The notes under the pieces were generated by a model. The model was not told where the DNA came from. It ran no database searches and saw nothing but the letters and a program-made list of their open reading frames with translations. Positions 7,696 to 31,761 of a DNA stretch of 41,680 nucleotides are shown here, piece by piece. Positions within the stretch are counted from its first letter, which is position 1, and the number at the start of each line of letters is the position of its first letter. A program made the translations under genes and the position numbers. Origin of the DNA: a virus; the IMG/VR virus record IMGVR_UViG_3300008219_000025, positions 1 through 41,680 of that record; one strand, 5' to 3'.

Positions 7696-8460
7696 GTGCC
7701 ACAATTAAACAAACATGGCAACTATAAACGCCTGTTAAAAATAGACGAGATTAAAAATAGATTTAACCTCAATAGAAAACTCCATGATTTTGAAGTGGAT
7801 GAATTATTCAAAGATATTAAACATAGAAAATTCACTAACATACAATATAGATATTTGGAAAAGGGAATACGCTACCAGGGGATAATTGATATTGAAACAT
7901 CGGATTTCAATCCCTACAAAAATTTCATTATTGGGTATGTTATGGTTATACGTGATCTGGTTACAGGTAAAGAGGTATTATACAAAGACAATATAGAAAA
8001 GAAGGATATTGCTATTGCAGTAAAGAATGACTCTTTTGATTTTGATAAAAGACTATTGCTTCAATTAGGAAAACACCTATCCAAATGTGATCATCTAGTT
8101 GGACACTACTCTAGCAAGTTTGATATTCCATACATCAGATCAAGACTTTTACTTACAGATCAACAGGAATCAATACCACAATATGGGCAAATAAGGTATG
8201 GTGATACGTGGAGAATGATGAAGAATAGCATCAAAGCACCAAGAAACACACTAAAGAACTTGGCAATCTATACGCACACCAAAGATCAAAAAACTCATGT
8301 AGATTATGAGCATTGGCAAAGAATCTGGTTTAAAGACTCACCACTTTGGAACAAAAGCATGAAATATATTATGGATCACTGTATCTATGATGTTAAAATG
8401 ACAGTAAGAGCATTAAAGAAGATTGAAACATTCAACAACATCCCAATGGCGATGGTCTAA
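7696..8460 (+). CDS. DEDD-family 3'-5' exonuclease (DnaQ/YprB-like)
   Basis: A 254-residue RNase H-fold exonuclease. Exo I is GIIDIETSD with D65 and E67, Exo II is HLVGHYSSKFDIPYIRSR with D143, and Exo III is HCIYDVKMT with D232 and H228, so all four metal ligands and the general-base His are present. YprB-like members have the same arrangement without a polymerase domain. It probably trims or proofreads DNA during viral replication, or degrades host nucleic acid. The GTG start is supported by the TATA box. It heads a run of four tightly packed genes. Confidence 0.85.
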   Translation: MPQLNKHGNYKRLLKIDEIKNRFNLNRKLHDFEVDELFKDIKHRKFTNIQYRYLEKGIRYQGIIDIETSDFNPYKNFIIGYVMVIRDLVTGKEVLYKDNIEKKDIAIAVKNDSFDFDKRLLLQLGKHLSKCDHLVGHYSSKFDIPYIRSRLLLTDQQESIPQYGQIRYGDTWRMMKNSIKAPRNTLKNLAIYTHTKDQKTHVDYEHWQRIWFKDSPLWNKSMKYIMDHCIYDVKMTVRALKKIETFNNIPMAMV

Positions 8461-8541
8461 ATGGTGGATTATCGTCATATAGAAAGATCCGAATGGACAA
8501 CTAATTTAAAAAAAGTAAAGTCAAAACGTGGTGTAGTCTAA
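8461..8541 (+). CDS. Tiny coupled protein, 26 aa
   Basis: The ATG follows directly on the exonuclease stop codon, and its stop overlaps the next ATG by one base (TAATG). The product is short and basic (RHIERSEWTTNLKKVKSKRG). Its exact fit between two genes argues that it is translated, either for function or only to couple translation. No family is recognised. Confidence 0.45.
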   Translation: MVDYRHIERSEWTTNLKKVKSKRGVV

Positions 8542-8810
8542 TGTTAAGCGATAGGGAGAAATTTATGGGATTCTATTCGATGTTCATAACAACACATATT
8601 AGCTTAGGCATCAATCCACAAGAGTTGGAACGAGATGGAATGGGTTACATCTTCAATGCCGTAATGGATACAATAAGAAAGTCTAGTTGCCCTAGTGTTA
8701 CAGAGGAAGAGGCCAAAGCAATAGCAGAGGATTTCAATATGGAAATGTTTAAAATTAAAACAATAATAGATGAAGCTATACAAAGCCAAAAGTTAGGTGA
8801 TAGAGTATAA
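8541..8810 (+). CDS. Hypothetical helical protein, 89 aa
   Basis: A small acidic all-helical protein (SVTEEEAKAIAEDFNMEMF and KTIIDEAIQSQKLG are amphipathic). Start and stop both overlap neighbours as TAATG. The function is unknown. Confidence 0.65.
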   Translation: MLSDREKFMGFYSMFITTHISLGINPQELERDGMGYIFNAVMDTIRKSSCPSVTEEEAKAIAEDFNMEMFKIKTIIDEAIQSQKLGDRV

Positions 8811-8977
8811 TGCCAACCGTTAAAGTTCAACGAATGTTTCCTAATTGTGATAAATATAAGAAATGTTGCCCAGATTCGGGTATGGAAGAGTTGATGGCTA
8901 AGGTTAAAAAGGTAGATAATTACGAACAAATGATCCAAGATATACTTGAAGAATCTAAGAAAAACGTCAAAACTTAA
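8810..8977 (+). CDS. Hypothetical small protein, 55 aa
   Basis: It begins at an ATG overlapping the upstream stop (TAATG). An N-terminal cysteine group (NCDKYKKCC) precedes a charged helix (MEELMAKVKKVDNYEQMIQDILEES). It may bind metal or be a small coiled-coil adaptor. It is the last gene of the exonuclease operon. Confidence 0.6.
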   Translation: MPTVKVQRMFPNCDKYKKCCPDSGMEELMAKVKKVDNYEQMIQDILEESKKNVKT

Positions 8978-9004
8978 ATCCTTTGATTGTATAGGTATAT
9001 TGAT

Positions 9005-9202
9005 ATGAACGCTGAATTACTAGGTATAATAACAGTGGGGATAATACTCTTATGTGTAGGTTGTGTTATTATTGTGGAAACGAATGATATACAAATCATA
9101 CCAGATACACAAAAGGAAACAAACTTTGGATCATGGACTTCATCAACTAAAACCAATAACTTACCATATTGTTATCCAAGTATTAATCCTGAATGTCGAT
9201 AG
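9005..9202 (+). CDS. Small membrane-anchored protein, 65 aa
   Basis: Residues 5-26 (LLGIITVGIILLCVGCVIIV) form one transmembrane helix, followed by a polar tail with two cysteines near the end. The ATG at 9005 is preferred over a TTG at 8987 because it places the helix at the N-terminus and because a weak TATA-like TTAAATCC (8974-8981) sits at about leaderless distance. It precedes the mini metalloprotease. The function is unknown. Confidence 0.6.
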   Translation: MNAELLGIITVGIILLCVGCVIIVETNDIQIIPDTQKETNFGSWTSSTKTNNLPYCYPSINPECR

Positions 9203-9211
9203 GGTTGGACC

Positions 9212-9451
9212 ATGGGTTTAACTGTGGATTTCAAATGCTCGAAAGACGATAATAGAGGCATTTATTATTCAGAAACAAGTAGGGCATTAATTTACCTAGC
9301 TATGCATGAAACTCTTGAAGATGTCATTAAGACTATAAACCATGAGGTTTACCATCATTGTTTAGAAGAGAATGGTGAGTCTGACAAAATGGATGAGGAA
9401 CAAGAAGAGAAAACAATATTCTTCTTACAATGGGCCGATGTAGCATTATAG
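9212..9451 (+). CDS. Mini zincin metalloprotease-like protein, 79 aa
   Basis: The central NHEVYHHCLEENGE contains HExxH (H-E-V-Y-H), the zinc-binding helix of zincin peptidases, preceded by a strand (SRALIYLAMHE) and a helix. Acidic residues follow in EEQEEKTIFFLQWA and could supply the third ligand. At 79 residues it is far below normal protease size, like the very small HExxH proteins seen in some phages. Proteolysis is plausible but unproven. It lies 9 bases after the membrane-anchored small protein. Confidence 0.6.
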   Translation: MGLTVDFKCSKDDNRGIYYSETSRALIYLAMHETLEDVIKTINHEVYHHCLEENGESDKMDEEQEEKTIFFLQWADVAL

Positions 9452-9456
9452 TAGGA

Positions 9457-9464
9457 TTTATATT
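9457..9464 (+). promoter_or_regulatory. TATA box of the PP-loop enzyme gene
   Basis: TTTATATT is centred 25-26 bases before the ATG at 9486, the leaderless spacing. Confidence 0.75.
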
Positions 9465-9485
9465 TATGAATAGCTAACTAATACT

Positions 9486-10502
9486 ATGTCAAAAGAAACT
9501 ATAGAAGATCCAATAGAAAGAACTCCAGAGGAGATAATGGGAGAAGTAATTGAGAAAGGATTTGACAGTTTTTATGTTGGCTATTCTGGTGGCAAGGATA
9601 GTGGGATAGCTTTAGACTTTATAGCAAAGAACTATCCCAAACAATTTAAAGGCGTACTCTATTGTGATACAGGTATTGGCACAAAAGCCACCATAGACTT
9701 TGTAAAGAGTTGGTGTAAGGACCACAACTATCCACTTCACATACTCGTGGCCACAGATGTAAAGAGGGTTAGGGAAAGCAAATATGGTGAGATTGGAGAT
9801 TCCTTTGGATATGAAGCTATGGTCTTGAACTTTGGATTTCCAGGTGTTGCCAACCATAATATTACAATGGCACAACTTAAAATGTATTCAATAAAGAAAT
9901 TTTGTACTGCTAAGAAGAAAGCTGGAGAGAAGCCAATAGTCATAAGTGGTGTAAGAAGAAAGGAATCTACTAGAAGAAGCCGTAGAAAATCATATCAAAA
10001 CTACATTAATGCCGATGGTAGCACCTGGTTTTGTTGCCCATTATACTTCAAGTCAAACGATTGGGTTATGAAGTATTGGATCACAGCCAATATCAAAAGG
10101 AGTCCAGTGTACGAAACCATGCATATTTCTGGAGATTGCTTGTGCGGCTGCTTTGCCAAAGAAGAAGAATTGGGTTTGTTAAAGATGTTCCACCCTGAAG
10201 TTTATGAAGAGATTAAAAGAATAGAGAAACTAATACCACAAAAAGGAAGCGATGTGGCCAAGAAATATTGTACTTGGGGTAATCATAATCAAAGCACATT
10301 AGGTGTAGAAGCACAAGATGATATAGAAGGCATGGTATGTACTGAATGTTTCCATGATCAAAACCAAGATGAGTCAAAGGCACAAGATACATCATATCTT
10401 AGAGAGAAACCAACTTCCAATATACCACCAGAAGAAGCCGAGATAAGAAAGAAGAAAAGGGAAGCAATTAACAAAGCCTTCAAGGAAAGCCAAGAATCCT
10501 AA
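9486..10502 (+). CDS. PP-loop (PAPS reductase/DndC-like) enzyme
   Basis: A 338-residue protein with the PP-loop SGGKDS (34-39), which binds ATP or an adenylated sulphur donor, and the downstream SGVRRKESTRR, typical of the PAPS reductase/DndC group. Cysteines C140, C183/C184 and the CLCGC cluster (218-222) could bind an iron-sulphur cluster, as in DndC. A further pair, CTEC, lies near 280-290. The last 50 residues are charged and helical. PAPS-reductase-like genes are frequent in viruses and their role is mostly unknown. No dndA, B, D or E partner is present here, so phosphorothioation cannot be claimed. The gene is monocistronic, with its own TATA box, and is followed by an RNA island. Confidence 0.85.
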   Translation: MSKETIEDPIERTPEEIMGEVIEKGFDSFYVGYSGGKDSGIALDFIAKNYPKQFKGVLYCDTGIGTKATIDFVKSWCKDHNYPLHILVATDVKRVRESKYGEIGDSFGYEAMVLNFGFPGVANHNITMAQLKMYSIKKFCTAKKKAGEKPIVISGVRRKESTRRSRRKSYQNYINADGSTWFCCPLYFKSNDWVMKYWITANIKRSPVYETMHISGDCLCGCFAKEEELGLLKMFHPEVYEEIKRIEKLIPQKGSDVAKKYCTWGNHNQSTLGVEAQDDIEGMVCTECFHDQNQDESKAQDTSYLREKPTSNIPPEEAEIRKKKREAINKAFKESQES

Positions 10503-10510
10503 TACCAGGA

Positions 10511-10518
10511 TTTATATA
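10511..10518 (+). promoter_or_regulatory. TATA box of the first structured RNA
   Basis: TTTATATA is centred about 25.5 bases before 10540, which is exactly the first base of the closing stem of the predicted RNA. No start codon follows at this distance with a usable frame. Confidence 0.7.
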
Positions 10519-10539
10519 GAGTATTAGTATTACTAAAAT

Positions 10540-10690
10540 TGACTAAGTTGATTGCTAGGGCAATCGATGAATACATACTTAGGAGAGGATGTATGTATTC
10601 CTCTCTCTCTTAGTCATATGGGCTAGGAATGTAGGCATACTTTAGAAGGATAGATGACGATCCTTTCACCTAGTCTTACTTTTTATTCTA
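10540..10690 (+). ncRNA. Candidate structured RNA A: three-way junction with possible pseudoknot
   Basis: The first domain is closed by TGACTAAG (10540-10547) with CTTAGTCA (10609-10616), 8 perfect pairs. Inside are GATTGC/GCAATC (10550-10555 with 10560-10565, loop TAGG) and a perfect 10-bp stem GAATACATAC/GTATGTATTC (10569-10578 with 10591-10600). The loop of the latter contains GGAGAGG (10582-10588), complementary to the CTCTCTCT strand (10601-10608), so an H-type pseudoknot is possible. A second domain is closed by GGCTAGG/CCTAGTC (10621-10627 with 10669-10675, one G-U) and holds AAGGAT/ATCCTT (10646-10651 with 10660-10665). A T-rich tract at 10680-10688 could terminate it. There is no coding potential. 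The 5' end matches the transcription start predicted from the TATA box. The function is unknown. Confidence 0.65.
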
Positions 10691-10706
10691 CTAGATCTAT
10701 TATATA

Positions 10707-10769
10707 TTGTGGGTAGTGTGAGCTTGCACAACTCGAAAGGGTAGACTGGAGTAGCGAACCAGCCCACAA
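10707..10769 (+). ncRNA. Candidate structured RNA B: small tRNA-like fold
   Basis: Seven perfect pairs, TTGTGGG (10707-10713) with CCCACAA (10763-10769), enclose two hairpins: TGTG/CACA (10717-10720 with 10727-10730) and CTGG/CCAG (10746-10749 with 10759-10762). The second hairpin abuts the closing strand, as a T-arm abuts the acceptor stem, and TA follows the 5' strand as in tRNA positions 8-9. The 15-base stretch between the hairpins cannot form an anticodon arm, and the loop is not a T-loop, so it is not a functional tRNA. A TATA-like TTATATAT (10700-10707) overlaps the 5' end, so RNA B may belong to the RNA A transcript or be a separate, later-starting RNA. Confidence 0.4.
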
Positions 10770-10778
10770 ATACCATAG

Positions 10779-10786
10779 TTTATATA
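10779..10786 (+). promoter_or_regulatory. TATA box of structured RNA C
   Basis: TTTATATA is centred 22-26 bases before the first stem of the RNA at 10804-10809. Confidence 0.6.
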
Positions 10787-10803
10787 TGGCATTAATTCAT
10801 AGT

Positions 10804-10955
10804 ATTATGTGACCGCTTTCGAGAAGTGCGTTTGAGAGGCAGAGGTTTAATATCTCTGAAAGGATCTCGCTAAATTCGGAAAGTCATAATGTGGACGGTA
10901 CAAAGACTGGCTCGGCTGATCTCCGACGAAAGCTTTGTAGAACGCCACAACTTTT
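10804..10955 (+). ncRNA. Candidate structured RNA C: two-domain RNA upstream of the small terminase
   Basis: Domain 1 is closed by ATTATG and AC (10804-10809, 10812-10813) with GTCATAAT (10883-10890), with a 2-base bulge. It contains GAGA/TCTC (10834-10837 with 10865-10868) stacked on CAGAG/CTCTG (10840-10844 with 10854-10858), plus a small CGCTT/AAG..CG hairpin. Domain 2 is closed by GTGG/CCAC (10891-10894 with 10945-10948), then TACAAAG/CTTTGTA (10899-10905 with 10933-10939) and TCGG/CCGA (10912-10915 with 10923-10926). A T-run (10951-10955) follows and may terminate it. It is locally G+C-richer than its surroundings. A GTG-started reading frame runs through its end into the terminase gene, but the structured part shows no protein-like sequence. 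Confidence 0.55.
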
Positions 10956-10961
10956 AATTAC

Positions 10962-10988
10962 TTATATATGTAATACACTAATATTACT
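10962..10988 (+). promoter_or_regulatory. Promoter of the terminase operon
   Basis: TTATATAT (10962-10969) is centred 24-25 bases before the ATG at 10990. The motif AATATTACT (10980-10988) sits directly before the start codon and recurs in other virion-gene promoters of this window. Confidence 0.75.
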
Positions 10989-10989
10989 T

Positions 10990-11484
10990 ATGCCTACTAA
11001 AATAGACAATAATAGACAAAAAAGAGGCAGGCCCACAAAATCAAAACAATCTGCTAATAGAAAGAAATGCCTGGAAGCTTATGAAAAATACTACTCTGCT
11101 GGTGGTGCTGCAAACTTGTTGGATCTAAATCGTCATACTGTAGAGAAATACTTTAAAGAGTTCCAGGAAACAGAGGTAGAGGAAACAAACTATGACTTTA
11201 TATTAAGACAAAGGTCCGCTAAGAATCGTGTCTTGGCTAGACTAGATGGCATATTAGAGGAACTAGATGGCCAATTAGCAGACATTAAGACTGTATTGGT
11301 TGATGATAAGCATGGTGAAAGCCATGATATAGGCAAGTATGAGTATATGCGTACACAGATACTAGGCAAGTTATCTGACATATTGCAACAAAAGGCTAGT
11401 GTGGAGATAACACCTACGCTTGACATCACAATAGACAACTATTTAGAGGAAAGATATGGACAGTTTATTAAAAAAGAAGTATGA
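10990..11484 (+). CDS. terS: Probable terminase small subunit
   Basis: A 164-residue DNA-binding protein directly upstream of, and overlapping, the terminase ATPase gene. After a basic AT-hook-like start (KRGRPTKSK) there is a helix-turn-helix (AGGAANLLDLNRHTVEKYFKEF), then a long helical region (RLDGILEELDGQLADIKTVL, KYEYMRTQILGKLSDILQQ) suited to oligomerisation, and a short C-terminal tail that may contact the large subunit. Small terminases recognise the packaging site on viral DNA. The ATG at 10990 is chosen over an in-frame GTG at 10891 because of the TATA spacing and because the longer form would overlap structured RNA C. The family is assigned by organisation, not by a diagnostic motif. 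Confidence 0.78.
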   Translation: MPTKIDNNRQKRGRPTKSKQSANRKKCLEAYEKYYSAGGAANLLDLNRHTVEKYFKEFQETEVEETNYDFILRQRSAKNRVLARLDGILEELDGQLADIKTVLVDDKHGESHDIGKYEYMRTQILGKLSDILQQKASVEITPTLDITIDNYLEERYGQFIKKEV

Positions 11485-12361
11485 TCTAAACAATCGAGAT
11501 TTTCACAAGGTAGCACCTCAAGTGAAATTAACCATTCCATCCCAAAATTTTAACATTCCAAAAGGTTTTAAGGAGTTTAATGAGATGATTGGCCTACCTA
11601 TTCACCCTGGAACTGGGAAAGAAACCGAAGTGTTCGACTATCAAGTAGACTATTTTGATGCATGGCAAAACCATCATAAACTAATACTCAATAAATCCAG
11701 GAAGATAGGTGCAACAGAGACAGCATTGAGGATCATAGCATATAATTGCCTAGTAGGTAACTATTCAGATCATCGAGTTATGATAGTAGCAGGCAACAAA
11801 CAGGATGTGGCCAATAGATTTATTCAACGTTTCAAGAGTTTGTTTTATAAGGGCCTAACAGACTTAAATAATAAGAGGTTTGAGTATGAGGATATTGTGA
11901 TCCAAGAGGATAGTAAGTCATGCATAATAAATGGAACATATATCCAAGCCTATCCGGCCAACGAGTCTGTGAGGGGAGAAGAGAATGTGATATGCGTGTT
12001 CATGTCAGAGTGTGCCTTTATAAACCTCATTGATGATAGTAAGGTATATAACGCACTCCATCCAAACGTGGCCAATATCAAGGAAGCAGACTTTGTAATG
12101 GAAAGTACCCCAAACGGAAAAAGGGGCTTTTTCTGGCAAAACTGGGATGCAACCTCGGAATACCATAAGTTAGAACAAGATTATACTGTTAGTTTGGGCC
12201 AACTACTAGACGATGAGTTTATAAAGGCAGAACAAGCTAATCCCAGGATTGATTTCCAACAGGAGTATGGATGCAAGTTTACCACATCCTTATCAGCAGC
12301 ATTTAAAGAAGATGAGATCATATTTGAAGAGAAGGATATAAATATGTATGAGGACCTATAA
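11456..12361 (+). CDS. terL: Terminase large subunit, ATPase domain only
   Basis: A 301-residue DNA-packaging motor ATPase. KSRKIGATE (80-88) is the terminase-type Walker A (RKxGxT). VICVFMSECAF (178-188) is the Walker B strand with catalytic E185, but the usual Asp before it is Ser184. ESTPNG (216-221) is the coupling motif III, followed by FFWQNWDATSEYHKL. The protein then runs through the EYGCKF segment that ends the ATPase domain and stops at MYEDL, where a normal terminase would continue into the RNase H-like nuclease. That nuclease is encoded separately at 18393-18965. The start overlaps terS by 29 bases. No intein or intron signature is visible at the break. Confidence 0.9.
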   Translation: MDSLLKKKYDLNNRDFHKVAPQVKLTIPSQNFNIPKGFKEFNEMIGLPIHPGTGKETEVFDYQVDYFDAWQNHHKLILNKSRKIGATETALRIIAYNCLVGNYSDHRVMIVAGNKQDVANRFIQRFKSLFYKGLTDLNNKRFEYEDIVIQEDSKSCIINGTYIQAYPANESVRGEENVICVFMSECAFINLIDDSKVYNALHPNVANIKEADFVMESTPNGKRGFFWQNWDATSEYHKLEQDYTVSLGQLLDDEFIKAEQANPRIDFQQEYGCKFTTSLSAAFKEDEIIFEEKDINMYEDL

Positions 12362-12366
12362 TATGT

Positions 12367-12582
12367 ATGCCGAAAGTATGTCAATCAAAATGTCACAAAT
12401 ATGGTAAAAGAGTTATGATTAAAGGTGAAAGTCCATACAATCGATATGTTTATTGTTCTGTATGTAGGAAGTGGATCAAGAAATACCTGGTTGGATTACA
12501 TTGTTCATGTTGTAGTGCCAGAATTAGAAAGGTATCGCATCATAATATGGCCCGCAATCATTACGAGAAGGTGAGTGCATAA
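12367..12582 (+). CDS. Small zinc-ribbon protein, paralogue of the gene at 12776
   Basis: A 71-residue protein with cysteines in the pattern C-x3-C near the start, then YCSVCRKWI, then HCSCCSARIR, and a C-terminal MARNHYEKV. The same pattern (YCRTCILWI, RCPCCSS, HMRKRYLKV) occurs in the 77-residue protein encoded at 12776, so the two arose by duplication. It starts five bases after the terminase ATPase stop. A zinc-binding adaptor is likely; the role is unknown. Confidence 0.75.
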   Translation: MPKVCQSKCHKYGKRVMIKGESPYNRYVYCSVCRKWIKKYLVGLHCSCCSARIRKVSHHNMARNHYEKVSA

Positions 12583-12776
12583 TAGCCAACTTCGTTTGTA
12601 CCACCTGCTTCAAGGCCAAAGACGAGAGCTTACAACTCCATTGGGTAGATAACAGGCAAGTATGTAATAGATGCTATTTTAAGTTTATTAAATATGAGAA
12701 ACTTGGTTCAGATCTACCAGATGATGAACGCAAGAAGATACTAGAGGATTTACTAAATATGGAAGAGAATAAATAA
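12582..12776 (+). CDS. Zinc-finger protein with a non-standard (ATA) start
   Basis: An open frame of 64 codons with FVCTTCFKAKDES and VCNRCYFKFIKY, a good CxxC/CxxC zinc finger, followed by an acidic helix (DDERKKILEDLLNMEE). No ATG, GTG or TTG is in frame upstream before a stop at about 12545. The frame meets the previous stop at ATAATAG, so ATA at 12582 (or 12579) is the likely initiator, coupled to upstream termination. The 3' end overlaps the next ATG as TAATG, which supports a real gene. A sequencing error upstream is the alternative. Confidence 0.6.
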   Translation: MANFVCTTCFKAKDESLQLHWVDNRQVCNRCYFKFIKYEKLGSDLPDDERKKILEDLLNMEENK

Positions 12777-13009
12777 TGGGAATGACTTGTAAGGGTAATT
12801 GTAGGTTGCATAAATACCCAAGACCACACCTGGGTAGGTATTCAATGCCATATCTTACTCATGGATATTGTAGAACGTGCATACTATGGATACCATTGAG
12901 GCAAGGAACTGGCCCATACAAGAATAGATGCCCGTGTTGTAGCAGCCTATATTCGATAAGGCCAAGACTAAACCACATGAGGAAGAGATATCTCAAAGTT
13001 TTTAAGTGA
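12776..13009 (+). CDS. Small zinc-ribbon protein, paralogue of the gene at 12367
   Basis: A 77-residue basic protein with CKGNC, YCRTCILWIP, RCPCCSSLYS and a C-terminal NHMRKRYLKV. Cysteine spacing and the C-terminal motif match the gene two positions upstream. The start overlaps the upstream stop (TAATG). The function is unknown. Confidence 0.75.
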   Translation: MGMTCKGNCRLHKYPRPHLGRYSMPYLTHGYCRTCILWIPLRQGTGPYKNRCPCCSSLYSIRPRLNHMRKRYLKVFK

Positions 13010-13027
13010 TAATACGCAAGTGTTATT

Positions 13028-13228
13028 GTGGCAACATATAAGGATTGGATTGTAAACCACCCAAAGAAAGGTAAGATCAAACTAGGTAAGTTATCACATA
13101 ATGATGTATGCAGGTTTTGCTTTGAACTATATATTATAAACCAAGAACAAGATAAGAAACTAAAGGAGTTTATTAATCTATTTGATAACTTGGAAAAGAA
13201 GGCAAAAAAGAATGGCACTAAAGACTGA
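13028..13228 (+). CDS. Hypothetical small helical protein, 66 aa
   Basis: The GTG start has a weak TATA-like TTTTTAAG (12999-13006) at leaderless distance. The protein has one VCRFC cysteine pair and a basic C-terminal coiled helix (QEQDKKLKEFINLFDNLEKKAKK). The 3' end overlaps the next gene by 17 bases. The function is unknown. Confidence 0.6.
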   Translation: MATYKDWIVNHPKKGKIKLGKLSHNDVCRFCFELYIINQEQDKKLKEFINLFDNLEKKAKKNGTKD

Positions 13229-13361
13229 TATTTATAGAAAGCAATTGAAACGGCCAAATAGGGGGCAACTCTGTGAGAGATGTGGTGAAGAAATGGAGAA
13301 CATCCAGGTATGCCACCAACGATGCCCTAATTGTGGTAACGAATTAACCTGTAGTGATTGA
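13212..13361 (+). CDS. Small zinc-ribbon protein, 49 aa
   Basis: CERCGEE and CPNCGNE form two zinc knuckles after a basic N-terminus (YRKQLKRPNRGQ). The gene overlaps its upstream neighbour and is followed after one base by the next ATG. This is a compact ribbon of the kind that accompanies transcription- or RNA-related factors; no specific role can be given. Confidence 0.7.
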   Translation: MALKTDIYRKQLKRPNRGQLCERCGEEMENIQVCHQRCPNCGNELTCSD

Positions 13362-13362
13362 T

Positions 13363-13527
13363 ATGGAAAGTGACTTGTTGTTCCTATGGTTTCTTTGTGG
13401 TTGTTATTTGCTAGGTGGGGTAACAATAGGGTATTACTTTAAAGCCTGGAGAAATAGAAAAGGCCACCGAACAGGAACAGGTAGATGGGATTATAAGGAT
13501 AGGCATCTAGGTGACGGATTTAATTAA
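13363..13527 (+). CDS. Small single-pass membrane protein, 54 aa
   Basis: Residues 4-25 (DLLFLWFLCGCYLLGGVTIGYY) form a transmembrane helix followed by a basic tail (KAWRNRKGHRTGTGRW). The type is N-terminal anchor with the positive side after the helix. It begins one base after the previous stop and overlaps the next GTG start by 17 bases. It could be a small holin- or spanin-like protein, but nothing specific supports this. Confidence 0.6.
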   Translation: MESDLLFLWFLCGCYLLGGVTIGYYFKAWRNRKGHRTGTGRWDYKDRHLGDGFN

Positions 13528-13621
13528 ATGTCCTAAATGCAAGTCATTGGATATTGTTGAGGTCCTATCTATTGATGGTGAGTCATTTGTTTGTGATGAG
13601 TGTGACCATGAATGGAAATAA
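13511..13621 (+). CDS. Tiny zinc-ribbon protein, 36 aa
   Basis: A complete ribbon in 36 residues: IKCPKCKS, a hairpin (DIVEVLSIDGESF) and VCDECDHEWK. The GTG start lies inside the end of the membrane-protein gene. It closely resembles the 31-residue ribbon at 17658 (MRCRNCLKE, YVCQDCKYEW) and the minus-strand ribbon at 5186. Confidence 0.65.
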   Translation: MTDLIKCPKCKSLDIVEVLSIDGESFVCDECDHEWK

Positions 13622-13628
13622 TTTATCC

Positions 13629-13636
13629 TTATATAA
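13629..13636 (+). promoter_or_regulatory. TATA box of the 1239-aa protein gene
   Basis: TTATATAA is centred 24-25 bases before the ATG at 13657. AATACTACT (13640-13648), a variant of the AATATTACT element, follows. Confidence 0.75.
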
Positions 13637-13656
13637 CATAATACTACTTATATAGT

Positions 13657-16600
13657 ATGGGTAGTGCTAGGATTAACGCAATTAGACAAAGGATAGCAGT
13701 AAAACGAAGTAAATTACCTAGTATTGGAGAAGCTTGGGATACATTAAATATTGGAACAAGAGAACGAGTTTTAAATCATTCAGGTGAAGGTGGTGGTGGT
13801 ATTCCATATAAAAGATTAATGGATAAAGATCCATATCGTGATCCACATGGTGGGAAAGATGATTTTACAAGAATAAGGTATGTGGTAGGCGATCCAAAAA
13901 AGATAGAAGTGGAAGATATTAATGTAAAGAAAGGAGTTGATTATCATTATAGAGATGGACCATATTTCGCAGAATATGAAAAGAGATTTCAAAAAGCCAT
14001 TAATACACCTTTCAATAAACAATCATCGTATTTGAAAGAGGCTATAGAACGTGGTTTAAGAGAACAAGGAATTAATCATAGAAGTGAAATAAGACCAGAT
14101 GCACCACCAATTAATCTACCTTATGGAGATTATGGAGAACATGAAACAGCAGGTATGAAACGTGATAGACAAAGATTTACCAAACTCAAACAAAGACTAG
14201 GCGTAACTGGTATGCCAAAAGACTTTGGTAAGAAACGTAAAAGGTTCAAAGAAGATAAGGATATTGACAAATTAGTAGATGATATAACAGATGTAGTAAT
14301 GAAAGAACGAAGAAAGATTATAAAAGATAATTCAAGAGGTGGAAGGCCACGTGGAATGAGAAGAGATCTTAGTACACCATTAATAAAAGAAGTACCATTT
14401 GGACCAGAAACAAGAGGAATAGGACAACTACCACATGGTGATCCAGGAAACTATGAACATATAGATCATAGACCATTTACCGATCTAACATTTGAAGAAG
14501 CTGAAGCAAAGGCCAAAGAAATGGGTTTACCTACATTTGAAGATCAACAGGGTATTCCAAAAGAATTACAAGATAAGTCTAAGGCATTTCATGTAATACC
14601 ACATGGTGGCATATCTATACCAAAAGAACAGAAGCGTAAGATATTACCTTTTGAGAAAAGAAAATGGGAAAAGAGTAAAAAATTAAGATCAAGATCAAAG
14701 AGGTATGACCAAAGAGAACAAGATGCAGAAGAAATAGCATTAGATTTATTGAATGATGAAAAACCTAGTAGATTGGTCACAAAGAGAAAATATGCACCTG
14801 GGCCATTTGGACTTGGTATAGATGAAGATGGTAGTGATCTAATAACAAATAGATCCCAGAGAAAGATTAGGCCACCTAAACCTGTTAGAAGTGACTTTGC
14901 AGAAATCATTACGGCCAAACAAAAGTCAGCAAGAGTAGAAGCACTTAGGCAACGAATGGCCTATGATCCACCAGAAGAGGATATTTTAGGATCTGATGTA
15001 TTAGAGAAGGCAGATGCATTTGAAATACATAAACAACCACATAACATACCACCATCCAGGTTGATGAAGAAAAAGATACACGCAAAAGATAAGGTAGGTG
15101 CGGCATTTGAGAACATTTTGGGTGGAGATGATGTGAACCAGATAACAGGCGAAGAGTATAAAAGCCAATTAGATGAGATAATAAGGAAAGGTTATATTGG
15201 AGAAAACGTTGATAGGACCAAGAAATATAGGCTTGATAGAACAAACAAAATGCCATACCAACGGGTTAAGGATGTGGCACAAGGTTGGACTAGGGATTAT
15301 ATTAAAAAACATAAATTGGCTAAAGAAGGAGATTATGGACCATCAGGTGTAAAGCGTGGCCCAGCACCAGGAAAGAGGTTTCCACCATTAAATTTAACAC
15401 CAGATGGTTGGAATAAAGTGATTGATAGAGCTTCTAAAGTTAAAGATTCAAATATATGGAGAGAACGATATGATGCAGCAAAGGGGGGTAATACGATGGG
15501 TTTTATCACAACAGATGGAATATTATATGAATCTGTTGGTTATGATGCAAATCACATAGGTGCGGTAAGAGAGATTATGGAAAAAGGAAAAGTAGATCCA
15601 TATATTTATGATAAATTTGCAGGTAATATGGGGCCTGAATCTTGGATGGCTGAGAGTCAAACAGTTCGTTTTTTCGATACAGGTAAAATGTCAATGGGTG
15701 GTGGTTTTGATGAGGATTACACAAACGAACATAGGCAATTAAATTTTCAAAACATAGAAGGTCCAGGACCTCGTGGCACTCCAACATCAGCTCAAATGAA
15801 AACAATAGGTTCGATTATTGGTGCATCCGGCCTACAACCCTCTCAAATAGTGACAGAATTAGGAGAGTATGGTTCTGATAGATTCGTTAGACGAAGATTA
15901 CAATTACACAAATATCCAAATGGTGATCCAGGTGCAGCTGGATTGGGATTCCTGGGCAGCAAACAAAGAATAGCAATTAAGCCAGATGGCCGAGGTCCAA
16001 ATCCTTTTCACCAAAATACTCCCTACAAACTACCAAACTATTCAGAACAAGATTATGAGGCATTTCACGATAAAATACTAGATCAAGATATGCATTTCGA
16101 TCATGGATTAGAATCTGGCATATATGACGATTTAAATGACGTAGCAGCAAAAGGTGGAGTTTATAAAGGATTTAAGGTAGATGAAAATACAGAGTTTGGT
16201 TCAGATCAAATACAAGATGCGTGGTCCTCACCCGAATTAGATAGTGATTTGCCTTGGAAAAATCTAAGTGATAGATCTAGAATGTATTTTAGAAAATACT
16301 ATCAAAAAATGTTAAGTGGTTCAGCGGACTATCAAACAGGTGGTCGAATTCGTGGGATGGGAGATGATTTTGAATTACGAGATTCTTATGTTAAACCTGG
16401 TTTTAGTAGGAATATTTGGCAAGGCAAGAAACCTGCACCAAGAGGAACAGGTGATATAAGAGCATATATAAAGGATACAGGAAATCCACTTTATTATAAT
16501 CAAACCGAATGGAATTTTGGAGATTCAGATGTAGTTAGTCTAACTAAGCAAGAGTATGATGATCCTAGTAAATATGGCAAATCATCAAGAATACAAACGG

Positions 16601-17376
16601 CTAGGGAAAGGCTTGGTGGCATAAAACTTCCAAATCTCATAGAAAAAAGACTAGTAGATTATACAGGAAAAACAACAAAGTTAAGTGGTAAACATTTCAT
16701 AACAAGTAAGGGTGAAATCACAAGACCACTTAGTTGGCATCGTACTACTCTAGAGGAATCTGGAATAGCACCAAATGTAGTTGGTAAACGTGGAATGGAA
16801 GGATTCTTACAAAAAAACAATGTAGTAAGAATAGATATTGGTAAAGATTATAGGGCGACTGGTGGCGAAGGTCCTTGGTTAGAAATTGAAGCAGAACATA
16901 AACTTACACCACAACAATCTAATATAATTAATAGTCATATAAAGAAAAACAAACTAAAACCAACTGATGTTATGTTAAAGGATAAATCAACCCAAGTGAA
17001 AAAACAACTACCAAAAGGTTTTGGGTTATCTAATGAAGAACTTGTAAACTTGGAAAGACAAGAGGAACAACGAAGAACCCATACACAAAACCTAGCAGGT
17101 AAACTCAGACAAAGGATAGCAGTAATAAGAGTAAGCCCAACAACCAAGAGAATTAAAAGGGTAAAGAAAGTGTTGGATTACGAATACCCATATCAAGGAC
17201 CAGAGGTGCCAACCACTACATATCCTAAGACTAACATACCAAAACTAACTGGACCACGAACAACAACAGGTGAGGAACGAAGAAGAAAGGTAACTAAAAA
17301 AGAGAGAAAGGCATTAAAGAAATACATATCGAAGGGAACTAAAATCAGACCAAAAAAGAGGAAACATAATGTCTGA
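13657..17376 (+). CDS. Giant basic modular protein (1239 aa) with recurrent RQRLA-type motifs
   Basis: A 1239-residue lysine/arginine-rich protein, gene order terL ATPase - this - terL nuclease - portal. A short motif recurs at the N-terminus (RINAIRQRIAVK, 5-16) and at about 175 (TKLKQRLGV), 425 (RVEALRQRMA), 768 (SKQRIAI), 978 (RIQTARERLGGI) and 1148 (GKLRQRIAVIR). Between copies are disordered polar stretches and at least one globular-looking segment (575-740, with GFITTDGILYES, DANHIGAVREIMEKG and SAQMKTIGSIIGASGLQPSQI). That segment recalls domains of large polyvalent virion proteins injected with DNA, by general appearance only. The motif is shared with the proteins at 17750 and 27364. 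I infer a packaged internal or ejection protein that may be cleaved during maturation. Enzymatic function is unknown. Confidence 0.6.
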   Translation: MGSARINAIRQRIAVKRSKLPSIGEAWDTLNIGTRERVLNHSGEGGGGIPYKRLMDKDPYRDPHGGKDDFTRIRYVVGDPKKIEVEDINVKKGVDYHYRDGPYFAEYEKRFQKAINTPFNKQSSYLKEAIERGLREQGINHRSEIRPDAPPINLPYGDYGEHETAGMKRDRQRFTKLKQRLGVTGMPKDFGKKRKRFKEDKDIDKLVDDITDVVMKERRKIIKDNSRGGRPRGMRRDLSTPLIKEVPFGPETRGIGQLPHGDPGNYEHIDHRPFTDLTFEEAEAKAKEMGLPTFEDQQGIPKELQDKSKAFHVIPHGGISIPKEQKRKILPFEKRKWEKSKKLRSRSKRYDQREQDAEEIALDLLNDEKPSRLVTKRKYAPGPFGLGIDEDGSDLITNRSQRKIRPPKPVRSDFAEIITAKQKSARVEALRQRMAYDPPEEDILGSDVLEKADAFEIHKQPHNIPPSRLMKKKIHAKDKVGAAFENILGGDDVNQITGEEYKSQLDEIIRKGYIGENVDRTKKYRLDRTNKMPYQRVKDVAQGWTRDYIKKHKLAKEGDYGPSGVKRGPAPGKRFPPLNLTPDGWNKVIDRASKVKDSNIWRERYDAAKGGNTMGFITTDGILYESVGYDANHIGAVREIMEKGKVDPYIYDKFAGNMGPESWMAESQTVRFFDTGKMSMGGGFDEDYTNEHRQLNFQNIEGPGPRGTPTSAQMKTIGSIIGASGLQPSQIVTELGEYGSDRFVRRRLQLHKYPNGDPGAAGLGFLGSKQRIAIKPDGRGPNPFHQNTPYKLPNYSEQDYEAFHDKILDQDMHFDHGLESGIYDDLNDVAAKGGVYKGFKVDENTEFGSDQIQDAWSSPELDSDLPWKNLSDRSRMYFRKYYQKMLSGSADYQTGGRIRGMGDDFELRDSYVKPGFSRNIWQGKKPAPRGTGDIRAYIKDTGNPLYYNQTEWNFGDSDVVSLTKQEYDDPSKYGKSSRIQTARERLGGIKLPNLIEKRLVDYTGKTTKLSGKHFITSKGEITRPLSWHRTTLEESGIAPNVVGKRGMEGFLQKNNVVRIDIGKDYRATGGEGPWLEIEAEHKLTPQQSNIINSHIKKNKLKPTDVMLKDKSTQVKKQLPKGFGLSNEELVNLERQEEQRRTHTQNLAGKLRQRIAVIRVSPTTKRIKRVKKVLDYEYPYQGPEVPTTTYPKTNIPKLTGPRTTTGEERRRKVTKKERKALKKYISKGTKIRPKKRKHNV

Positions 17377-17614
17377 AGAACCTGAGAAAGTAAATCCAAG
17401 ATGGGAAATAATAAACCAACTATATGATGCAATAGATACTGATATAACAGATATTAGTGAGAAGGAAAAGATGAATTTTATTGAGATTAGTATGGCCCTT
17501 CAAATGATAAACAAGAAAGTAGAGTATGAACAATTTAAGGCCATGTTTGACTTTAATGTAGAATCTATGGTAAAACAAGCAGAAGAGGGCCAACCTGAAG
17601 GTATGTATAAATGA
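17369..17614 (+). CDS. Hypothetical acidic helical protein, 81 aa
   Basis: A small acidic protein (ISEKEKMNFIEISMALQMINKKVEYEQFKAMFDFN) predicted to be almost entirely helical. The ATG overlaps the end of the giant basic protein gene by 8 bases. An acidic partner encoded directly after a very basic protein could be a chaperone for it, but that is speculation. The end overlaps the next ATG as ATGA. Confidence 0.7.
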   Translation: MSEEPEKVNPRWEIINQLYDAIDTDITDISEKEKMNFIEISMALQMINKKVEYEQFKAMFDFNVESMVKQAEEGQPEGMYK

Positions 17615-17661
17615 CAGATGATGAAGAAAGACCAGAGTGGGATTGGCTAAAGAAGAAATGA
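17611..17661 (+). CDS. Possible 16-aa coupling peptide
   Basis: ATGA overlaps join this 16-codon frame (MTDDEERPEWDWLKKK) to the genes on both sides. It may only keep ribosomes moving between the 81-aa and zinc-ribbon genes. The perfect chain of ATGA overlaps is the only support. Confidence 0.3.
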   Translation: MTDDEERPEWDWLKKK

Positions 17662-17753
17662 GATGTAGAAATTGTTTGAAGGAGAATGTTAAATTGATTA
17701 AGAAATGGTATGTATGCCAAGATTGCAAATATGAGTGGGAGAATGTGAAATGA
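17658..17753 (+). CDS. Tiny zinc-ribbon protein, 31 aa
   Basis: MRCRNCLKE and YVCQDCKYEWE make two zinc knuckles around a basic hairpin (NVKLIKKW). It is linked by ATGA overlaps to both neighbours. It is very similar in plan to the ribbon at 13511. Confidence 0.65.
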   Translation: MRCRNCLKENVKLIKKWYVCQDCKYEWENVK

Positions 17754-18403
17754 CCAGGATTAATGAGTTAAGGCAAAGACTTGGTAGAATACGATTTGCA
17801 GCACCAGATTATCTTTATCTAACAAAACAATACCCTAAAAACAAACAATTTAGAGAAGAAGCCAAACAGGATAGAGCATTTAACAAATCACACGCACTTG
17901 AAGAAAAATACAAATATAGGGCAAGAGACCCCACGCATAGAACAGATGTTGATAAAAGTAAAGAGATACCATACGGAAAGGAAAATAGAACATATGAAGA
18001 ACAATCACAAGATGCTTATAATAGAATGATGACAGAATGGGATCAAGAAGAAGGTGCAAAGGGTATAGGTGATTTTAAAGAGAATATTTATACAAGTGAT
18101 CTTTACGAGGCTGATGCCGAAAAGAGAAAAGGCATTAAAGGTGAAGCCACTAAAAAACTAGAAGGTGCTAGTATTGGTCTTGCAGAAGATTTAACTGATA
18201 TACCACCATGGAAGCCTGTGGGATATAAACCATTAAAGATATATCCAGGTAGAGAAGAATATGTTGGTAGGCGATCAAAGAAAAATAGGTATGGTTTGGA
18301 TAGAGTAAAACAAATAGTGCATAAACCAAAACGTAAAGAATGGACTAGAATAATACAGGCCAAAAAACTCAAACAAAGGTTGGCGAGGATATATGAATCC
18401 TAA
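17750..18403 (+). CDS. Basic protein with RQRLA-type motifs at both termini (217 aa)
   Basis: A 217-residue basic, probably extended protein lying between the terminase halves. It starts with TRINELRQRLGRIR (2-15) and ends with AKKLKQRLARIYES (204-217), so the recurrent motif of the two giant proteins brackets it exactly. The middle is polar with many Lys, Arg, Asp and Tyr and few hydrophobic clusters. The ATG at 17750 (ATGA overlap with the zinc ribbon) is preferred over an upstream codon at 17735. The 3' end overlaps the terminase nuclease gene by 11 bases. I infer a packaged internal head protein; the function is unknown. Confidence 0.6.
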   Translation: MTRINELRQRLGRIRFAAPDYLYLTKQYPKNKQFREEAKQDRAFNKSHALEEKYKYRARDPTHRTDVDKSKEIPYGKENRTYEEQSQDAYNRMMTEWDQEEGAKGIGDFKENIYTSDLYEADAEKRKGIKGEATKKLEGASIGLAEDLTDIPPWKPVGYKPLKIYPGREEYVGRRSKKNRYGLDRVKQIVHKPKRKEWTRIIQAKKLKQRLARIYES

Positions 18404-18965
18404 GTTTGGTGGCCTAGATTTAGCACAAAGGGTAGACAATTCAGCCCTGGTTGTATTAGAATTAGATAGTGGTGTATTAACGCAAGTAGGACAGAAGGTT
18501 TGGCCTCACATAGATTATGAGAAGATATTTCAAAGTCTTACTAAGATTAATGAGATTGAGAAGTTTAACAAGATATGCTATGATAGAACTGGTGTAGGTG
18601 ATGCCGTAGCTAAACTGATAAACCCATCTATGAGGAAAATATGTAGGCCCACAGTCCTAACAATCAAGAAGAAGTTTGAGCTAATAACCCTGGTAAAGGG
18701 ATTATTCAATGAGAAGAAGTTAAAGATCCATGATAGAGATCTATTTAGGGAGATAACGGAACAAGAGGTTGTGACTAGCGATGCTGGTAACTTACTATAT
18801 AGGCATCCAGAGGGATTCCACGATGATAGGTTTTGGGGCTTGGCATTGGCTTGTGAGGCTGGTTCATACGCAGTTCGAGGTATTACTAGATCTGCTGCGA
18901 TAGCCGCATCACCAAGGGAAACCAATCTCGAAAGCTTGATTATACAAGAATTAAACCGTGTATAA
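18393..18965 (+). CDS. Terminase large subunit, nuclease domain encoded separately
   Basis: A 190-residue RNase H-fold nuclease, the C-terminal half of a large terminase. GLDLAQRVDNSALVVLEL is the first strand pair with D9, ICYDRTGVGDAV supplies D64 on the fourth strand, and GFHDDRFWGLALAC supplies D144/D145, the three-metal-ligand pattern of terminase nucleases. No ATPase motif is present. The partner ATPase gene ends 6 kb upstream at precisely the domain boundary, so the two products should assemble on the portal in trans. The ATG start overlaps the upstream gene, and the portal gene follows, which is the usual order terL-portal. Confidence 0.9.
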   Translation: MNPKFGGLDLAQRVDNSALVVLELDSGVLTQVGQKVWPHIDYEKIFQSLTKINEIEKFNKICYDRTGVGDAVAKLINPSMRKICRPTVLTIKKKFELITLVKGLFNEKKLKIHDRDLFREITEQEVVTSDAGNLLYRHPEGFHDDRFWGLALACEAGSYAVRGITRSAAIAASPRETNLESLIIQELNRV

Positions 18966-18996
18966 GGTTAATAAAGGAGAAGAGGTAACTATAAAT

Positions 18997-20628
18997 ATGG
19001 CGAAATCTAGAGTGAAAAAAGCAAAGTCAGACAAAATATTGCCAAGAGTTGCTTCTGTTAAATCAACAGCAGGTAGGAATTTCGAACGAAACTTTTGGCG
19101 TAAGATGAATGGAGAGGTTGGTCAATACCAAGGACTACAAGTCTGGGCCCCGCTAGATCCATATTTGGGCCAACAAAGAAAAGAGTTCAAATCAGCCATG
19201 ACTAATCCTTATGTCTATAGGGCTACAAGAATACAAACAACATATGTCACAGGCCAAGGATATACGACAGAGATTGTTCCTCGAAGAGAGGAAGATGTAC
19301 CTGACGAACAACTAGACGAGTGGCAACGTACCACAAGTTATGACGTTCCCTACCTGGACAAAAAATTAACGGCTGAACAAATTAAAGATAAATTAGATAA
19401 AATGGCATTAGACTTGGACTTACCAACCAATCTATTTAATGCATATATGACTAGCCTGGAACAAGGAAGATGCGTATTGGCATTGACTCCACTAGATCCA
19501 GACGAGAATGGTAATTGGCAACTTCCAGAGCAAATTAGGCTTATTAGACCAGAATACACTGAAAGACCCGTACTCGATGATAATACAGGGGAGTTAATTG
19601 GAGTTAGGATTATAGGCGTTAGAAGTCAGATTAGGGATAATATCATACCATCTGAGAGATTTATCTATGTAATGCATGGTTGGAACAATGAGTTATTTAG
19701 TGATTACTATGGTGATTCCAAAATAAGCAGAATATCTGATGAGGCCAACACATTAAACATTGTTTTAAACCAGGATTATGAAAGGGCTGCAGAATCAGCA
19801 TGGTATAAGCCACCAGTATTCTCCGTACCCATACCACCACAAGAGGCTGGTAATGAAGAGGATGTATTATCACAATTCATTCAAAGAGTGAATGATGCCA
19901 AAGGCCAAGCTATTGCAGTAACTGGACCAAGCAATCCTGAAGAAACAGGGGTAAGCGTATTAAGTACACCACCTCATGCAGATATTGGTGGATTGGAAAT
20001 AGTAAGGCAAGGTTTGATCAAAGCAATCATCACAGCATTTGGATTACCAGGGTTTATGTTATCAGAGGGAGATATAGGCAAACTAGGCGGTAATGCAAAT
20101 ATTGAGGAAGTAGATGCATATATCAACCAAGAGATTAGACCAGAGTGTAAGGTGCTTGAAGCAGTAGTAGAAGAACAATTCTTTGATAGGGTTCTATGTA
20201 TATTATTCCAGGAAACAGATGCAAGGAAACTACCATGTAAGATTAAGTTTAAGTTTAACAAACCAAAATTAGTTACATTACTCACACCTGATATGTTTGG
20301 TGTATTGATGCAAATGGCACAACTAGGATTCATAGACGAATCAGGTATCAGAGAGATGTTAGGATTAGAGGAATATGACAAAGATACAATGAGTAAGGGA
20401 GCTCAAGGTGGGCCAAACCCAACATTTAATAGATTAGACAACTGGAAGCAACCAGTTCAAATCAACCTATGGCAAGATGGAACGGGTAAGATGAACATAA
20501 CAGCGGCAGATTGGGTTAAGACGGATCAATGGAATAAGATGGAAGCACATAACAAAGAGAAAGCTTCAGAGAAGAAATGGACCAAGGCAAGACAACTAAA
20601 GAAATGGGAAGAGGATAATAGAGGTTGA
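18997..20628 (+). CDS. Portal protein
   Basis: About 543 residues forming the dodecameric portal at one capsid vertex. The order fits portals: an N-terminal basic region, NPYVYRATRIQTTYVTGQGY (start of the core), a strand-rich section (PEQIRLIRPEYTERPVLDDNTGELIGVRIIG), a clip/stem section (SRISDEANTLNIVLNQDYERAAESAW), LEIVRQGLIKAIITAFGLPGFML before a wing with GDIGKLGGNANIEEVDAYINQEIRPECKVLEAVVEE, and a C-terminal helical crown. The ATG at 18997 is preferred; a GTG at 18958 would add 13 residues and overlap the nuclease gene. A purine-rich AAAGGAGAAGAGG lies at 18973-18985, too far from 18997 for a standard ribosome site. Confidence 0.88.
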   Translation: MAKSRVKKAKSDKILPRVASVKSTAGRNFERNFWRKMNGEVGQYQGLQVWAPLDPYLGQQRKEFKSAMTNPYVYRATRIQTTYVTGQGYTTEIVPRREEDVPDEQLDEWQRTTSYDVPYLDKKLTAEQIKDKLDKMALDLDLPTNLFNAYMTSLEQGRCVLALTPLDPDENGNWQLPEQIRLIRPEYTERPVLDDNTGELIGVRIIGVRSQIRDNIIPSERFIYVMHGWNNELFSDYYGDSKISRISDEANTLNIVLNQDYERAAESAWYKPPVFSVPIPPQEAGNEEDVLSQFIQRVNDAKGQAIAVTGPSNPEETGVSVLSTPPHADIGGLEIVRQGLIKAIITAFGLPGFMLSEGDIGKLGGNANIEEVDAYINQEIRPECKVLEAVVEEQFFDRVLCILFQETDARKLPCKIKFKFNKPKLVTLLTPDMFGVLMQMAQLGFIDESGIREMLGLEEYDKDTMSKGAQGGPNPTFNRLDNWKQPVQINLWQDGTGKMNITAADWVKTDQWNKMEAHNKEKASEKKWTKARQLKKWEEDNRG

Positions 20629-21234: not shown

Positions 21235-22065
21235 TTATCTTGTGATATTACACTTATGTGTGCATATATCAATATCACCCGCGGTATAATATCCCACTTT
21301 TAAAGGTGGTGTTATAGATCCACCAAACCCATCCTCTCCATATATTTTCTCAACCATTTTTATATCCACGAACATTGGATTTCCTATGTCGTTAAAGGTT
21401 GGATTAATAGAGTAATACATTACTGATGCATCTATCCAGGGCTTATCTTTGGTATAAACTGGGTAATCTGTTATCTTATAATGACCAAGGCCTAAAGCAT
21501 GACCAAATTCATGTGTTACAATATTCTGAATGGCAATTAAACTAAATGGTGTTATCTTATGTGTGGTATCCTTATAGACTTGCTCTTGAGAACCTAGAAC
21601 AATCTTATAATGTTCAATAGCCTTATAGTCATATAGGAATATTATTATATGGACATATTTGTGGGTTGAATAGGAAAAGTCTACATATGTAAATCCCAAG
21701 CTTGATGCTTCCTCATTATAATACTCAAATGATATAAGTATGTTACAAGCAGGGAATTGTGATGAGTTCTTTCCATCATGGTCCTCAAAATCTATGGTGA
21801 CCATAATCATATCCCAATTACCACCTGGAGAGTGTTCTGCAAATCCCTCTTTCCAAAGGTCTATTGATGTATATGATGCCTTTAGTACACCCTCAACATC
21901 TTCCGTATGTGTGGGATCAGGTTCAAATACGCATATAATAGGATTTGTTGAGTGTCTTATTCCTATAGTTCCATATTCATCTGCAAATACAGATTGTATA
22001 TAAATCCCAAAAAGCATTAATACTAGAAACATAGTTACGAATATACCTAAATATATGCCCGACAT
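21235..22065 (-). CDS. Secreted matrixin-type metalloprotease (minus strand)
   Basis: A 276-residue zinc metallopeptidase. The C-terminal half has HEFGHALGLGH, the complete metzincin zinc site HExxHxxGxxH, and the downstream SVMYYSI, a Met-turn. The N-terminus (IYLGIFVTMFLVLMLFGIYIQSVFADEYG) is a signal peptide with a likely cleavage after FA. The frame extends upstream to 22128, but the minus-strand TATA box (TTTATACC, plus 22088-22095) is centred 26-27 bases before the ATG at 22065, and this start puts the signal peptide at the N-terminus. It is transcribed divergently from the holin-like gene. It probably acts on the host cell surface at exit or entry. Matrixin-like genes are common in ammonia-oxidising archaea, so host origin is possible. 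Confidence 0.88.
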   Translation of the reverse strand: MSGIYLGIFVTMFLVLMLFGIYIQSVFADEYGTIGIRHSTNPIICVFEPDPTHTEDVEGVLKASYTSIDLWKEGFAEHSPGGNWDMIMVTIDFEDHDGKNSSQFPACNILISFEYYNEEASSLGFTYVDFSYSTHKYVHIIIFLYDYKAIEHYKIVLGSQEQVYKDTTHKITPFSLIAIQNIVTHEFGHALGLGHYKITDYPVYTKDKPWIDASVMYYSINPTFNDIGNPMFVDIKMVEKIYGEDGFGGSITPPLKVGYYTAGDIDICTHKCNITR

Positions 22066-22084
22066 ATCCATATTTACGAGTAAT

Positions 22085-22110
22085 AAGGTATAAAGGTTTA
22101 AATTCAATGA
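22085..22110. promoter_or_regulatory. Overlapping divergent TATA boxes
   Basis: A minus-strand box (TTTATACC, plus 22088-22095) serves the matrixin gene and a plus-strand box (TTTAAATT, 22097-22104) is centred 26-27 bases before the ATG at 22127. The two boxes are adjacent, so the two transcripts are probably mutually exclusive or commonly regulated. Confidence 0.65.
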
Positions 22111-22126
22111 TGTATATAGACTATTC

Positions 22127-22387
22127 ATGGTAGAACCATTGATATTAGTAGCAGGAGCAGCATCAGTAGGAGCTATATTGAATACCTTGAGAGGGTACTT
22201 ACATCACACAGACGAAGGTTATTCAGCAAGAAAACTAGCAGGATCAATAATCATCGCAGTATTGGGTGGTTTGGCATTGGCCCAAACAGCCGTAATAGAT
22301 GGATTATCAGAACCAGCAATAGTTTTGGTAGGATTGACAACAGGCTTCGCAGCAGACTTCGCTATTTCAAGAGCAAAAAAGGATTAA
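22127..22387 (+). CDS. Holin-like membrane protein
   Basis: An 86-residue protein with an N-terminal hydrophobic segment (LILVAGAASVGAIL), a short polar loop (YLHHTDEGYSARK), a second hydrophobic segment (LAGSIIIAVLGGLALAQTAVI) and a third (PAIVLVGLTTGFAADFAI), ending in a basic tail (SRAKKD). Size and layout match small holins. The start is fixed by the TATA box. Neighbouring metalloproteases and the XhlA-like gene make an exit or lysis cassette likely. A structural membrane protein is the alternative. Confidence 0.6.
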   Translation: MVEPLILVAGAASVGAILNTLRGYLHHTDEGYSARKLAGSIIIAVLGGLALAQTAVIDGLSEPAIVLVGLTTGFAADFAISRAKKD

Positions 22388-31698: not shown

Positions 31699-31716
31699 TA
31701 CTCGAATAATATTACC

Positions 31717-31734
31717 AATATTACTCTATATATA
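31717..31734 (+). promoter_or_regulatory. Promoter of the scaffold/capsid operon
   Basis: AATATTACT (31717-31725) is followed by TATATATA (31727-31734), centred 31-32 bases before the ATG at 31762, leaving a 5-6 base leader. The preceding AATATTACCAATATT (31708-31722) is an inverted repeat and could be an operator. Confidence 0.6.
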
Positions 31735-31761
31735 CTACCAAAACATATAAATATCAATAAC

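Follow-up and report, generated by a model that had tools for sequence, protein, structure and literature searches.

Separate genes for the ATPase and nuclease of the large terminase, parted by a variable gene block, in a lineage of uncultured tailed viruses

Large terminases (TerL) of the Terminase_6 type are single polypeptides, but in the virus sequence studied here the ATPase and the nuclease are encoded by two ORFs lying about 6 kb apart. This raises the question whether the locus reflects an artefact, a decaying gene, a gene rejoined by splicing or a fission with both products still at work. The sequence (hereafter the window) is an IMG/VR virus sequence of 41,680 bases with open ends, its first and last ORFs running off. 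The original prediction was a fission at the interdomain linker with both halves intact and no decay, and this is strongly supported by 13 contigs, invariant residues, purifying selection and fold, as well as by the lack of a second terminase or a splicing element, as detailed below.

The ORF at positions 11456-12361 on the plus strand encodes 301 amino acids and was assigned as the ATPase half of TerL (P-loop ATPase plus lid) by Pfam, PHROGs, profile and fold comparison. It matches Pfam Terminase_6N (E=7.4e-8) and PHROG terL (6e-21). Searched against solved structures, its family profile hits T4 gp17 (9e-9), and the T4 gp17 ATPase domain is also the top match of the predicted fold (E=7.4e-9; pLDDT 62, i.e. 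a model of modest confidence). The predicted Walker A-like sequence KSRKIGATE (residues 80-88), the Walker B strand, the coupling motif ESTPNG (216-221) and the stop within the interdomain linker were all confirmed, with the addition that in the Walker B strand VFMSE (181-185) Ser replaces the usual Asp ahead of the catalytic Glu. Walker A, catalytic Glu and coupling motif are thus all present, as in TerL of the Terminase_6 type. The catalytic residues are invariant in an alignment of seven members (A4), in which identity to the window ATPase falls as low as 41% with the layout still kept. A putative small subunit gene (TerS, 10891-11484, plus strand; weak match to PHROG terminase small subunit, E=0.017) overlaps the start of the ATPase gene and likely begins at an internal ATG near 10993; its place directly upstream of the ATPase gene is conserved in relatives.

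The nuclease half (18393-18965, plus strand; 190 amino acids) is RNase H-like according to Pfam, fold and alignment. Beginning with M-NPKFGGLDLAQ, it has its own start codon with GAGG upstream, and GAGG or a similar sequence precedes the gene in many members, too. The acidic residues D9, D64, D144 and D145 were found as predicted and are invariant in 18 homologues (18-member alignment A3), with identity to the window nuclease as low as 44% and the layout still kept. The protein matches Pfam Terminase_6C (E=1e-7) and several terL PHROGs, and its family profile matches the G20c TerL nuclease among solved structures (1.6e-4). Structure prediction, proposed originally as a check, matched both halves to TerL domains; for the nuclease (pLDDT 82) the top match was again the G20c TerL nuclease (E=2.3e-10) compared with 3.2e-4 for RuvC, and an identity as RuvC-like resolvase was therefore rejected. 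A C-terminal helix (residues 179-189) is kept, although with low model confidence. The gene overlaps by 8 bp the portal protein gene (18958-20628, plus strand; Pfam Phage_portal 2e-4, below cut-off), and in every member seen the nuclease gene adjoins the portal gene, either overlapping or preceding it. In the 52-kb contig G001 the first catalytic Asp of the nuclease frame is closely followed by TAA TGA (L004, reverse strand; 813-1660 of reoriented G001); either the copy is broken or the assembly may be faulty at this point. An HNH-type ORF, recognised by eye, lies directly upstream of this frame.

IMG/VR searches with the ATPase, the nuclease and the portal protein yielded about 30 nuclease-bearing loci of this lineage. 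Both halves are present, always on one strand, in 13 contigs (L002, L006, L007, L013, L014, L016, L017, L018, L026, L031, L035 with L028, the L001 contig and the window), which rules out an assembly artefact. None of the nuclease ORFs of the lineage extends into an ATPase, and the domains are separate ORFs in every member found, i.e. two genes as in the split TerL of Arthrobacter cluster AY phages. The same searches returned no fused close relative within the lineage; the sole fused hit, L041, is 26% identical and was discarded as a close outgroup. Each of the records G000-G004 has a single ATPase and a single nuclease. No second terminase of the tested types was detected in the window and the long records, which are not closed genomes, and the long records revealed no further TerL nuclease. 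Hence neither of the two observations named beforehand as speaking against the fission, a complete second terminase and a RuvC-like nuclease, was made. Decay is ruled out by the invariant catalytic residues and by the dN/dS values of unsaturated pairs, which range over 0.026-0.054 in the ATPase and over 0.037-0.119 in the nuclease. The two ORFs are complete domains with their own starts, conserved and under purifying selection.

The usual gene order in the lineage is TerS-ATPase-[cargo]-nuclease-portal, which corresponds to the standard terL arrangement interrupted at the linker. In the intact Terminase_6 relatives with one gene (StopSmel, B3, Riverbug, Lsp-JY19, MMP17, Emery, HGTV-1 and HCTV-6), terL lies mostly directly upstream of the portal gene or near it. 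When the halves are mapped onto TerL of Riverbug, the aligned part of the ATPase ends at position 287, equivalent to residue 231, and that of the nuclease begins at position 6, equivalent to residue 252. This leaves a linker of 20 residues in Riverbug compared with 19 in the split pair (ATPase 288-301 plus nuclease 1-5), and judging from this alignment no residues are lost relative to the intact TerL. The ATPase stops at a near-identical alignment position in all members, L031 having three extra residues. As the order TerS-[ATPase/nuclease]-portal of the intact relatives is kept and genes are inserted at the linker, the simplest history is a fission after which the gap grew. We therefore consider it very probable that an ancestral single-gene TerL of the Terminase_6 type was split at the linker, that accessory genes filled and reshuffled the gap and that the halves act in trans at the portal.

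Instead of fission of one gene, recombination might have joined halves of different TerLs. The top-scoring intact relatives do rank differently for the ATPase (HGTV-1, Riverbug) and the nuclease (L041, StopSmel), but the halves form the matching Pfam pair Terminase_6N/6C and are ordered as in intact relatives, so that such an origin appears unlikely. The topology that the nuclease favours is also compatible with the ATPase data (AU p=0.30), a result that bears only on the history within the lineage. Independent reassortment of the halves, at which the distances hinted, was dropped likewise, since none of three topologies could be rejected with the ATPase data. Another explanation would be that the nuclease-like protein has left packaging, e.g. 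to degrade host DNA, and that packaging is left to the ATPase, either by itself or together with a different nuclease. Motors of the phi29 type package with a vestigial nuclease domain (PMC7672431). Furthermore, the pairwise distances of the nuclease correlate less with those of the ATPase (0.78) than with those of the portal (0.94; ATPase-portal 0.84), with the reservation that gene adjacency confounds the nuclease-portal value and could alone yield it. Against this stand the position of the nuclease gene beside the portal gene in all members seen, its TerL-type fold and residues and the lack of another TerL nuclease in the long records, and we regard a departure from packaging as very unlikely.

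The two ORFs could also be exons or split-intein parts that are rejoined by RNA splicing (group I/II, trans-splicing, bulge-helix-bulge) or protein splicing. There are precedents for interrupted terL genes: introns or inteins have been described for ICP1 (PMC10448857), Bastillevirinae (PMC11878797) and Mic1 (PMC7156551), and in ICP1, SIOphi and Mic1 RNA or protein splicing restores one protein. The herpesvirus terL (UL15/UL89) has other genes between its coding blocks, as is the case here; there, these genes lie inside an intron and mRNA splicing gives one protein (PMC6466031). In the present lineage, however, the ATPase has its own stop in the linker and the nuclease its own start, often with a GAGG-like sequence upstream. 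Since no Rfam intron family reached the gathering threshold in the window and eight loci, a known group I or II intron is not indicated. RNA pairing between the two borders was not above that of shuffled sequences in seven loci, with duplex energies no different from those of the shuffles. An intein was not detected by Pfam, and neither the ATPase end nor the nuclease start carries an intein-like extension. No exact direct repeat of at least 10 nt that could represent an insertion scar is common to both borders. Rejoining of the halves is thus highly improbable, and the lack of a Rfam intron, of border pairing and of an intein-like extension makes synthesis as two separate proteins the best reading of the sequence.

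The interval between the halves (12362-18392, 6031 bp) contains variable accessory genes. Its length ranges from 2,100 nt (L018) to 7,957 nt (L031) among the loci. For G001 the distance between the halves is about 17 kb on a circular map and larger in linear order; the ends of this contig do not overlap, so that a circular contig was not accepted and the value is uncertain. The count of seven small genes before and four after a 1239-amino acid ORF proved too high for the window. Plausible small ORFs on the same strand number about four before (at 12367, 12776, 13028 and 13354) and two after it (17369 and 17735). The large ORF itself (13657-17376, plus strand) belongs to no known family and contains motifs of the KLRQR(I/L)A type; its C-terminal 134 amino acids share 56% identity with a portion of a large ORF that precedes the major capsid protein (MCP) gene in a relative. 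Directly upstream of the nuclease, a 222-amino acid ORF (17735-18403, plus strand) carries an LRQRLG/LKQRLA motif near both ends, a pattern recurring in G002 (27050-27763) and G004 (38612-39802).

When the proteins of five long records and three shorter loci were clustered by BLASTP, the genome outside the interval proved largely collinear while the interval varies, and no interval gene family is common to all members. A PD-(D/E)XK gene, an M78-like gene and the small families 39, 41 and 51 belong to the interval in some genomes, but in others they precede TerS or MCM. The interval therefore looks like an accessory-gene region. It had been suggested that a protein encoded between the halves might bring the nuclease to the portal; as no family is present in the interval of every lineage and relatives carry several of the interval families elsewhere in the genome, this idea found no support.

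The motif K-L-[KR]-Q-R-[LI]-[AG] (KL[KR]QR[LI][AG]xI) occurs eight times in the window compared with 0.05 matches expected by shuffling, seven times in G004 and four times in G003. It is carried by a 1444-amino acid ORF upstream of the capsid genes and by interval proteins next to the nuclease, these large ORFs being otherwise without family. In the window, the ORFs concerned are those at 27364-31698 (1444 amino acids), 13657-17376 and 17735-18403, and in relatives they lie at 27697-32043 in G003, at 7765-12177 and 38612-39802 in G004 and at 27050-27763 in G002. Segments between motifs that one genome has in its ORF of the 1444-amino acid type recur in interval proteins of a second genome. In a G004 interval protein, for instance, a motif-flanked stretch of 191 amino acids shares 88% identity with part of the 1448-amino acid ORF of G003. 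This identity and the recurrence of the motif suggest that the motif-bounded segments may be interchangeable modules with a common targeting or cleavage signal. Residues from about 528 to 722 of the 1444-amino acid ORF are conserved in all four relatives compared and form the core of a 320-amino acid homologue in G001 (52% identical). The conserved part has no match in Pfam or PHROGs; its position before the scaffold and MCP genes suggests a head maturation protease.

Returning to the favoured reading, ATPase and nuclease would cooperate in trans at the portal as separate polypeptides. The nuclease would probably dock on the portal by its own surface and its C-terminal helix, and an ATPase ring with TerS would stack on the docked nuclease, pump DNA and trigger the cut. 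Docking without help seems more likely than docking via a recruiter from the interval. In other systems, docking on the portal is likewise attributed to the nuclease domain and the C-terminal arm of TerL. The nuclease domain adjoins the portal in phi29 and HK97 (review PMC7617512). The P22 nuclease is weak when isolated from its ATPase domain (same review), and activation in trans would therefore need to be efficient here. As a more tentative idea, the cutter may be an independent, portal-docked module made with the late structural genes and the motor be made with TerS and the preceding genes. The halves might then differ in timing, and the fission would decouple pumping from cutting both temporally and during assembly.

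The lineage comprises uncultured tailed viruses, and its hosts are probably archaeal. This is deduced from an MCM helicase fused to a prim-pol domain (window 2758-5172), from MCM matches in haloarchaeal and methanogen viruses and from a RadA-like recombinase and a PCNA-like fragment recognised by eye in G001. Searches of GTDB species genomes with the nuclease and portal profiles revealed no proviral relatives. Directly upstream of the packaging genes, the window encodes a PAPS-reductase-domain protein (9486-10502), which was not seen at that place in G002-G004. Two matrixin-like metalloprotease genes of opposite orientation are located at 21235-22128 (minus strand) and 22410-23156 (plus strand); the place of this pair is kept in G002, G003 and G004. 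A protein rich in near-repeats of the SVSDSVSRLxxAFRTI type (25776-27002) is possibly fibre- or tail-associated.

A two-gene TerL as such is already known. In the Arthrobacter cluster AY phages (BillyTP, PP978841) the TerL domains are encoded by two adjacent genes (PMC11920828), and in the BillyTP record TerS, ATPase (600-1679), nuclease (1663-2259) and portal are consecutive. The order TerS-ATPase-nuclease-portal is thus the same as here. In contrast, the cluster AY genes are consecutive and overlapping, whereas the halves described here are 2.1-8 kb apart and more than 17 kb in G001. The AY nuclease belongs to another TerL family, PF20441, the AY host is bacterial, and an hmmsearch of the BillyTP proteins with the A3 and A4 profiles gave no match to either half. 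The two fissions therefore look independent. In the Thermus phage Riverbug, HGTV-1, the Mu-like B3/StopSmel and T4 (gp17) the same domain families are present, but in one polypeptide, and terL is in most of them directly before or close to the portal gene. Among the open-licence papers searched, cluster AY was the sole comparable two-gene case, and we found no report of unspliced TerL halves parted by a multi-kb gene block. What is new is a fission, apparently an independent one, that encloses a variable block of genes several kb long in a virus lineage of archaeal type.

Annotation that expects a single terL gene will overlook these viruses or give them a wrong name. Should the two proteins act in trans, they would form a natural packaging motor without a covalent linker, which would make the linker dispensable, and they would provide a system where motor and cutter can be supplied separately.
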